Shown: piece by piece, positions 49,729 to 52,535 of the stretch
Numbering within the stretch: the first letter of the stretch is position 1
How the letters are laid out: every line of letters starts with the position of its first letter
Notes under the pieces: model-generated
Database searches by the model: none
What the model was told of the DNA's origin: nothing
What the model saw: only the letters and a program-made list of their open reading frames with translations
DNA from: Acidobacteriota bacterium
GTDB taxonomy: Bacteria > Acidobacteriota > Terriglobia > 2-12-FULL-54-10
DNA length: 62,177 bases
Direction of reading: 5' to 3'
NCBI GenBank assembly: GCA_009691245.1
Contig: SHUM01000015.1
Location: 1-62,177, forward strand
Position numbers and translations under genes: made by a program

Positions 49729-49773
49729 CAATTGAGGATACAATGGAGTTTCGCCGCGTGGTATTCCTTCTCT

Positions 49774-50529
49774 ATGCAGATTCGTGTGCTATTCTTCGGG
49801 ATTCTCAAGGACGTTATTGGCTGCGCCGAGCAGCACGTCCAACTCGACGCGGGTGCAGACCTGGCGCAGCTTTACGCTGCAATGGAAGCGAAATATCCAG
49901 GCCTCGCGCGGCATCGCTCCAGCCTGAAGTTCTCGCGCAACCGTGAGTTTGTGGACGCGCGGCAGCGGCTGGAAGACGGCGATGAAGTGGCGCTATTGCC
50001 GCCGGTGAGCGGCGGGGTCGAAGGCCGGAATTTAACCACAGAGGGCGCGGAGGAAAGGCGCTGGGTCGTTCGCATCACGCGCGAGCCGATTGACGTGCGC
50101 GCGCTGGAGGCTGAGGTGGCGCGCCCCACTGACGGCGCAGTCGTAACCTTCGCGGGCATCGTGCGCAACAACTCGAAGATGCCGCTGCCGCCTCCGAATG
50201 AAGCCACGCGCGTGGAGCGCGAGACGCTGTATATGGAATACGAAGGCTACGAGCCGATGGCGCTCGAAAAGATGCGCGAGATTTGCGCCGCGCTCGTCGC
50301 CGAGCATCCCATTGGGCGCATCGGCATGGTGCATCGGCTGGGGCGGCTGGAGATTGGCGAGGCCAGCGTGGTGATCGTGGTCGCCGCGCCGCATCGCCCG
50401 GCGGCGTTCACGGCCTGCCGCGCCGCCATTGACCAATTGAAGAAGATCGTGCCGATCTGGAAGAAGGAATACTTCCGCGACGGCGCCGTGTGGGTGGAGG
50501 GTGAGCGGCTGGGCGCGCCCGCCTCCTAA
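49774..50529 (+). CDS. MoaD-MoaE fusion, molybdopterin synthase
   Basis: 251 residues. Residues 1-81 are MoaD, a ubiquitin-like sulfur carrier ending in LLPPVSGG with the Gly80-Gly81 that must become a thiocarboxylate. Residues about 97-251 are MoaE (TREPIDVRALEAEV, GAVVTFAGIVRNNS, RIGMVHRLGRLEIGE, AIDQLKKIVPIWKKE). The fusion resembles mycobacterial MoaX, which is cleaved after the Gly-Gly. Residues 86-96 are encoded by a copy of repeat family C (50032-50060). Cleavage here is an inference; the Gly-Gly is otherwise internal and unusable. Confidence 0.9.
   Translation: MQIRVLFFGILKDVIGCAEQHVQLDAGADLAQLYAAMEAKYPGLARHRSSLKFSRNREFVDARQRLEDGDEVALLPPVSGGVEGRNLTTEGAEERRWVVRITREPIDVRALEAEVARPTDGAVVTFAGIVRNNSKMPLPPPNEATRVERETLYMEYEGYEPMALEKMREICAALVAEHPIGRIGMVHRLGRLEIGEASVVIVVAAPHRPAAFTACRAAIDQLKKIVPIWKKEYFRDGAVWVEGERLGAPAS
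50032..50060 (+). repeat. Repeat family C fragment inside the MoaD-MoaE linker
   Basis: TTAACCACAGAGGGCGCGG and the following AGGAAAGGCG match the left half of family C (compare TTAACCGCAGAGGACGCAGA at 39438). It stays in frame and encodes the linker NLTTEGAEERR between the two domains of the fusion. Confidence 0.75.
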
Positions 50530-50553: not shown

Positions 50554-50641
50554 GTTGTCATTCCGAGCGGAGCGAAGAATCTGCTGTTAACCTTTGCAGT
50601 GAAAGCTAAAGCAGATTCCTCGCTCCGCTCGGAATGACAAC
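50554..50641. repeat. Hairpin repeat family B, copy 8
   Basis: GTTGTCATTCCGAGCGGAGCG and the complementary end CGCTCCGCTCGGAATGACAAC are 21-base perfect arms. It lies just before the Hfq-like gene, whose start codon is 40 bases further. Confidence 0.85.
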
Positions 50642-50680
50642 TCACTGGTATTTTTGGATAGATTCTCGAAAGAGGAAATC

Positions 50681-51263
50681 ATGTTTAACGAACGACGACC
50701 ACCGATGTCTTCGATGCCCCGGGGGGGGGGGGGGCTCGCGCGGCCCGCGCCGTCCCAGTTCGCAGGGCGAAGGAGCGCAGGGGACTGGCCGGCCTCGGCC
50801 TGCCCAGCACAGCCCGGCAGCGCCTTCACAAAGCCAATTCGGCCCGGACCCGCGCGCTCCGGGCGCGCATCGTCAATCATCGGGCGGCCCGCGAGGACCT
50901 GGTGGTCCGCAGCACGGCGGTCCGCGGCGTCCCGGCACAGGCAGGCCGAGTCCGCGTCGCAGTGGCCCTGGACGCGGTGGCCTTGGGCGCGGCGGTCCGG
51001 AGCGTGGCGGTCCCAGCAGGCCGCGGCGCAACTTCGATGCCGAGGAGCCGGAAATCGACGAAACGCTCAGCGGCCCCATCGAGGCCGATTACCTGAAGAC
51101 GCTGGTGGAGGCGCGCGCGTCCATCGAGGTGCATCTGCGCAACGGCGAGACGCACTCCGGCACTATCGAATACTATGACCAGCGCTTCATCCGCCTGACG
51201 CCGCAAGGCGCGTCCAACAAATTTATTTTCAAGCATGACATCAAGTACATGCTGGAGAAGTAA
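50681..51263 (+). CDS. RG-rich Hfq-like RNA-binding protein, frame broken at a G14 tract
   Basis: The C-terminal 66 residues are an Hfq/LSm-like domain: YLKTLVEARASIEVHLRNGE, SGTIEYYDQRFIRL and FKHDIKYM (compare YKHA in E. coli Hfq). In front is a roughly 110-residue Gly/Pro/Arg tail. The ATG at 50681 has AGAGGAAAT directly upstream and gives MFNERRPPMSSMPR, but 14 consecutive G (50721-50734) put it out of frame; with 13 or 16 G the frames join, giving about 193 residues. The Hfq frame itself is open back to 50634 but has no good start. Real phase variation, ribosomal slippage and a homopolymer sequencing error are all possible. Confidence 0.75.
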
Positions 51264-51690
51264 CGCGGTGTACGACAGCGCGCAGGCTACCACGGCACGA
51301 TTTGGGTGCCGTGGGTGTTTCGCTCCGGCGTATACCAACGCGAATGCCCACGGCAGCAGCGCAAATGTTTGCGGAACTAATGCGAATGCCCACGGCAAAC
51401 CGTACCGATCCCCGCTGGGGATCCATAGGACAGCCGGGGGCACCGCCCCCGGACTTGATGCCTCCAAAGCGCGACGACCCTGAAAGGGTCGTACAGATCG
51501 AGCGGCAACGGAGGACGCACAGTTTGTACGACCCCTTCAGGGTCGGTGGATTATTGGAACGTGGTCACCGGGGGCGAATGCCCCCGGCTACACTCTGCAT
51601 CCCCTGCGGGGATGTACGGGGTTGAGAGGATGTGATGGTTGCGGAGATGGGCGCGGTGACATTCTCAATCTAAAAATTCTAACGGAACGG
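51264..51690. repeat. Mosaic of small hairpin repeats
   Basis: No gene is visible in about 430 bases. Direct repeats GCGAATGCCCACGGCA (51341-51356, 51383-51398); hairpins CCGGGGGC/GCCCCCGG (51434-51452) and a similar CCGGGGGCGAATGCCCCCGG near 51569; an inverted pair CGACCCTGAAAGGGTCGTAC (51474) versus GTACGACCCCTTCAGGGTCG (51526); and CCCCGCTGGGGAT against CCCCTGCGGGGAT. These units look like mobile intergenic elements that accumulated side by side. Confidence 0.75.
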
Positions 51691-51704: not shown

Positions 51705-52535
51705 ATGAGCGAAATGCTGAGTACTACCTGCGACATTGCCCGCGCGGCGGGCGCGATACTGATGGAGTTCTTCGAGCGGCGCGTGCGCGTCGAGTACAAG
51801 GGCGACGTGGACATTGTCACCGAGGCCGACCGCACGTCGGAGAAGTACATCATCTCGCAACTGCGCGAGAAGTTTCCCGAGCACTCCGTGATCGCCGAGG
51901 AAGGCGGCGGCTATGAACGGGCCTCGGGTTACGCGGCGGGCTACACCTGGTACATTGATCCGCTGGACGGCACCACCAACTTCGCGCACAGCTTTCCGGT
52001 CTTCGCCGTGTCGATGGGTCTCAAGAAGGACGACGAGATGGTGCTGGGCGTCGTCTACGATCCCACGCGCAATGAAATGTTCGCCGCCGAGAAGGGGCAG
52101 GGCGCTACGCTGAACGGCAAGCCCATGCGCGTGTCGTCCATCGCGCGGCTCGCAGAGGCGCTGGTGGCCACGGGCTTCCCCAGTCAGCGGCGGCACCAGA
52201 ATCCCAACATCCATTTCTATCACCAGTTCAACATGAACTCGCACGGCGTGCGCCGCCCCGGCTCGGCGGCAACGGACCTGGCCTACGTCGCCGCAGGCCG
52301 CCTCGATGCGTTCTGGGAGTTCAACCTGCACCCCTGGGACGTGGCCGCGGGCAAGCTGCTGGTCGCGGAAGCGGGCGGCCGCGTGTCCGACTCGACCGGC
52401 GCGCCGCACACCATGCAGAGCAACGCCGTGATGGCCTCGAACGGCCTGCTGCACGATCAAATGCTGAAAGAGTTCAACAACCTCTTCGCCGGCAAGTACG
52501 CCGCCGCGCTGCCCCCGCTGGTAAGGCCGGCGTAG
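51705..52535 (+). CDS. suhB: Inositol monophosphatase family protein
   Basis: 276 residues. The metal-binding signature motifs are present: EEGGGYERASG (Glu region), WYIDPLDGTTNFAHSFPVF and the C-terminal WEFNLHPWDVAAGKLLVAEAGG. It hydrolyses inositol phosphates or related sugar phosphates; SuhB relatives also join transcription antitermination complexes. ATG 51705. Convergent with the FAD-oxidase pseudogene. Confidence 0.93.
   Translation: MSEMLSTTCDIARAAGAILMEFFERRVRVEYKGDVDIVTEADRTSEKYIISQLREKFPEHSVIAEEGGGYERASGYAAGYTWYIDPLDGTTNFAHSFPVFAVSMGLKKDDEMVLGVVYDPTRNEMFAAEKGQGATLNGKPMRVSSIARLAEALVATGFPSQRRHQNPNIHFYHQFNMNSHGVRRPGSAATDLAYVAAGRLDAFWEFNLHPWDVAAGKLLVAEAGGRVSDSTGAPHTMQSNAVMASNGLLHDQMLKEFNNLFAGKYAAALPPLVRPA

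Follow-up and report, generated by a model that had tools for sequence, protein, structure and literature searches.

The Hfq-like gene and its split reading frame

The stretch of DNA analysed here (62,177 nt, referred to as the window) carries an Hfq-like gene on the + strand, between a MoaD-MoaE fusion gene encoding molybdopterin synthase (49732-50529, + strand) and a gene of the inositol monophosphatase family (51705-52535, + strand). MoaD and MoaE are fused into a single gene in the upstream neighbour. The Hfq-like gene is flanked by two families of dispersed repeats, each of which is present many times in this genome as well as in that of the sister species: a palindromic hairpin that starts CATTCCGAGCGGAGCGA and lies between the MoaD-MoaE and Hfq-like genes (50554-50641, strand not assigned), and a GGGGGCACCGCCCCCGG-type repeat (51400-51619).

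The 5′ end of the gene extends from ATG 50681 to the first base of the codon for R14 (50681-50720, + strand; MFNERRPPMSSMP), with an AGAGGA ribosome-binding site just upstream of the ATG. The frame from this ATG reads MFNERRPPMSSMPR and then enters a homopolymer of 14 G at exactly 50721-50734 on the + strand, which forms the frame junction. At 14 G, the frame of ATG 50681 is one frame off the Hfq-like frame, which runs through a Gly/Arg/Pro-rich linker (50735-51062, + strand), presumably disordered to judge by its composition, and through an Hfq-like Sm domain with its stop codon (51072-51263, + strand; TAA at 51261-51263). A preliminary description of this DNA had proposed such a split, and we could confirm both the position of the tract and the one-frame offset. 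The G14 run was reproduced in none of 100 dinucleotide-preserving shuffles of the window, and runs of G elsewhere in the window reach at most 6 bases. Unique and coherent gene sequence lies on both sides of the tract, indicating that the run itself is real. All codons within the tract are GGG, as against 2 of the 29 glycine codons across the rest of the Hfq-like gene, which suggests that the run grew by slippage.

We then simulated tracts of different lengths. With 10, 13 or 16 G the frames are joined, giving a protein of 192-194 aa that includes the Hfq-like domain; the preliminary description had named 13 and 16, and 10 works equally. Tracts of 11, 14 or 17 G give a protein of 164-166 aa, and those of 12 or 15 G a product of 137-138 aa, both without the Hfq-like domain. 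In silico, therefore, a change of length toggles an otherwise intact frame, on at 10, 13 or 16 G and off at the other lengths. The out-of-frame product at 14 G meets no early stop and continues for 165 residues of unrelated sequence to approximately position 51178. Between the tract and the domain, inspection of the Hfq frame revealed no start codon. Codon usage was considered for placing the frame change, and was uninformative in the linker, where a poor score for the Hfq frame is exceeded by that of a different frame; we attribute this to the G/P/R-rich composition.

A second ATG lies in the Hfq frame at 50634, at the edge of the hairpin repeat, and translation from it would give an open frame of 209 aa with no frame break at all. 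This extension (50634-50680, + strand) is an extremely improbable start, since the ATG is without a ribosome-binding site and sits inside the dispersed repeat, and the N-terminus that it would encode has no relative. The N-terminus from 50681, on the other hand, does have relatives: the stretch before the tract, MFNERRPP...MPR, resembles the MRFERPP... that is in frame in two other genera. This sequence resemblance makes it very probable that ATG 50681 was inherited as the start and that the frame breaks at the tract.

Fold and paralogs of the Hfq-like protein

The domain encoded downstream of the tract scored close to the cut-off of 27 bits for the Hfq family PF17209 of Pfam, with 29 bits in a domain search and 26 bits in the longer protein. 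A sequence search of the PDB returned Hfq proteins as matches. The AlphaFold model of the protein had a mean pLDDT of 79, and the best 50 PDB matches found with Foldseek were all Hfq (top E-value 5e-5, TM-score ∼0.73 by query length). Judged by sequence and predicted fold, the domain is thus a divergent Hfq-type Sm fold, in support of its earlier assignment.

Like Hfq (PF17209) and the Hfq-related Sm proteins (PF21979), the protein has the Sm fold and the Sm2 K-H pair, its FKHD aligning with YKHA, and the DQ of the GQIESFDQ stretch is also present. Unlike Hfq, it carries a long N-terminal Gly/Arg/Pro-rich extension, and at several positions of the rim and the distal face its residues are not those of E. 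coli Hfq. In the PDB alignment the rim arginine patch is mostly not kept, the aligned residues being VEAR, and the distal-face residues Y25, I30 and K31 of the E. coli protein align with H, E and T. A score of 27 bits against the NCBIfam Hfq equivalog TIGR02383 is also far under the cut-off of 61.7.

Moreover, the genome has a canonical Hfq besides. Three Hfq-like genes are present, at C24:3790-3972, C8:43065-43211 and C15:51090-51251, the last being the gene studied here. Canonical Hfq is the separate, intact gene on contig C24 (77.7 bits), and the gene on C8 is a second divergent paralog. Three Hfq matches were also seen in six of the eight relatives of the class that we checked, and two in the sister genome and in one other. 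Since canonical Hfq is intact elsewhere, the gene at the G14 tract is a third, divergent Hfq-like Sm protein and not the main Hfq of the cell. The term ‘global RNA regulator’ used for it in the preliminary description is not supported for one of two divergent paralogs.

Relatives and long G/C tracts in the genus

The gene is intact in two relatives from other genera, where the N-termini MRFERPPFRKRP and MRFERPPFQNRNMPR are in frame with the domain, indicating that the halves before and after the tract are one gene. Where the flanks were read, the relatives’ gene also adjoins MoaE or inositol monophosphatase. From a scan of GTDB contigs we obtained no more than two relatives, both distant, in MAGs that bear the title DeepCast. 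The placement of the genome in Acidobacteriota is through named relatives only. In the other genera of the family, no run of at least 7 bases was found at the tract position. A non-homopolymeric site in relatives had been put forward as evidence against length variation; the relatives of other genera are indeed non-homopolymeric here, but their linkers are too divergent to align. The sister species was considered as an arbiter of tract length. Its contig ends within the hairpin repeat, 5′ of the Hfq-like gene, which we counted against phase variation, and the same-genus ortholog is absent from its assembly; the three poly-G-ended contigs of this assembly are other loci.

The frame is broken as assembled, and a fixed one-base indel could have made the gene a recent pseudogene. 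This is quite improbable, as the remainder of the gene is intact, the domain has a strong coding signal and other members of the family have retained the gene. Programmed recoding, with slippage of RNA polymerase or a +1 slip of the ribosome on a fixed run of 14 G producing both forms, is very improbable. A homopolymer of 14 bases can be slippery, and the domain can be reached solely by slippage or from the poor start at 50634. However, a conserved slippery site is absent in the relatives, and the tract is made of G, whereas transcriptional slippage typically occurs on runs of A or T (PMC3711429). With regard to the ribosomal slippage proposed earlier, a shift of +1 (or -2) would fit 14 G, but a slip of -1 lands in the wrong frame.

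We compared the G/C tracts of the studied genome (G000) and of the sister genome of the same genus (G001) with those of five other genomes of the family. Internal tracts of at least 12 bases number three per genome in both members of the genus and zero in the five others, and the density of runs of at least 9 bases, taken as counts per genome length, is two to three times the mean of these five. The long internal tracts of the sister genome are not obviously within genes, a finding that counts against phase variation. Both internal 14-mers of G000 lie at gene starts, within codons 1 to 14, and both genes have a ribosome-binding site; this enrichment at gene starts consists of two tracts only and was noticed after the fact. 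Two further tracts sit 36-38 bases upstream of start codons. Loss of mismatch repair could be rejected as the cause of the tract excess, because mutS and mutL are both present and intact; nothing therefore points to unusual instability, and this too was counted against phase variation.

The second 14-mer of G000 is a C14 run directly after the ATG in a gene whose product, ∼430 aa long, is a multi-pass membrane protein (G000:C24:18490-18503). It is also one base too long, and one base fewer places the gene in frame. We considered this gene as an arbiter of tract length and found no close ortholog. The G/C tracts of 9 bases within three genes of G000 are all in frame, indicating that the assembly data are good to nine bases. 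One of the genes in G000 with such a run is CoA-ligase-like, with an in-frame G9 close to its start, at about codon 13 (G000:C7:15610-15618).

These observations bear on whether the count of 14 is correct. The true tract may be in frame, most simply with 13 G, and the gene ordinarily expressed, with the extra base being an artefact of sequencing, library PCR, assembly or consensus calling; this is a serious possibility, if somewhat below an even chance. On short-read platforms reliability drops as homopolymers lengthen, and the main error is a wrong length (PMC11140927). Some contigs of both genomes terminate in poly-G of 16-26 bases (G000:C50; G001:C44, C210 and C301), suggesting trouble with G runs. 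The C14 run is exactly one base over as well, as a systematic over-count would give, but the two tracts would agree in phase by chance in 1 of 9 cases, so that this is weak evidence. A frame break seen as a singleton is in general likely to be an error or a plain indel (PMC3711429). On the other side stands the unique, coherent sequence that flanks the tract. If 14 is a miscount, the locus cautions users of draft genomes that real genes are broken at long runs of G.

Possible phase variation and known contingency loci

A tract at the start of a gene, combined with an offset of one base, has the look of a phase-variable gene, and a consistent over-count by one gives the same pattern. Switching of the Hfq-like gene by a length-variable tract is plausible, at a likelihood just short of even. 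In such a mechanism, the 5′ coding end of a functional-type Hfq-like gene would have acquired a long, slippage-prone G tract, the length of which would shift by single bases through replication slippage. The protein would be made where the tract of a cell or lineage has 10, 13 or 16 G, and an unrelated product of 137-166 aa in all others, and the locus would act as a poly-G switch of the contingency (phase-variable) type. Phase-variable genes are known mostly for surface-exposed proteins, and some for DNA-modifying ones (PMC3711429), and are not known for Hfq-like proteins; this was counted against phase variation here.

A broader proposal is that poly-G contingency tracts are in use in this genus of Acidobacteriota, and that one of them stochastically switches the RG-rich Hfq-like protein and so provides phase-variable post-transcriptional regulation. 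We regard this as unlikely. Neither phase-variable Hfq nor homopolymer switching in Acidobacteriota was found in the literature searched, nor was the combination of poly-G phase variation, Acidobacteriota and an RNA-chaperone-like protein. Should tract lengths vary in cells, poly-G phase variation would be extended to a genus of Acidobacteriota and to a protein of this kind.

The poly-G and poly-C contingency loci of Neisseria, Campylobacter and Helicobacter are the closest basis for comparison. Unlike those loci, the tract described here is known from one assembled sequence, in which length variation is not seen, the product is of an RNA-binding type and neither a surface nor a DNA-modifying protein, and the host is a probable member of the Acidobacteriota with mutS and mutL. 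Like them, it has a long G tract within its first codons, and its gene is otherwise intact and one base off in the assembly.
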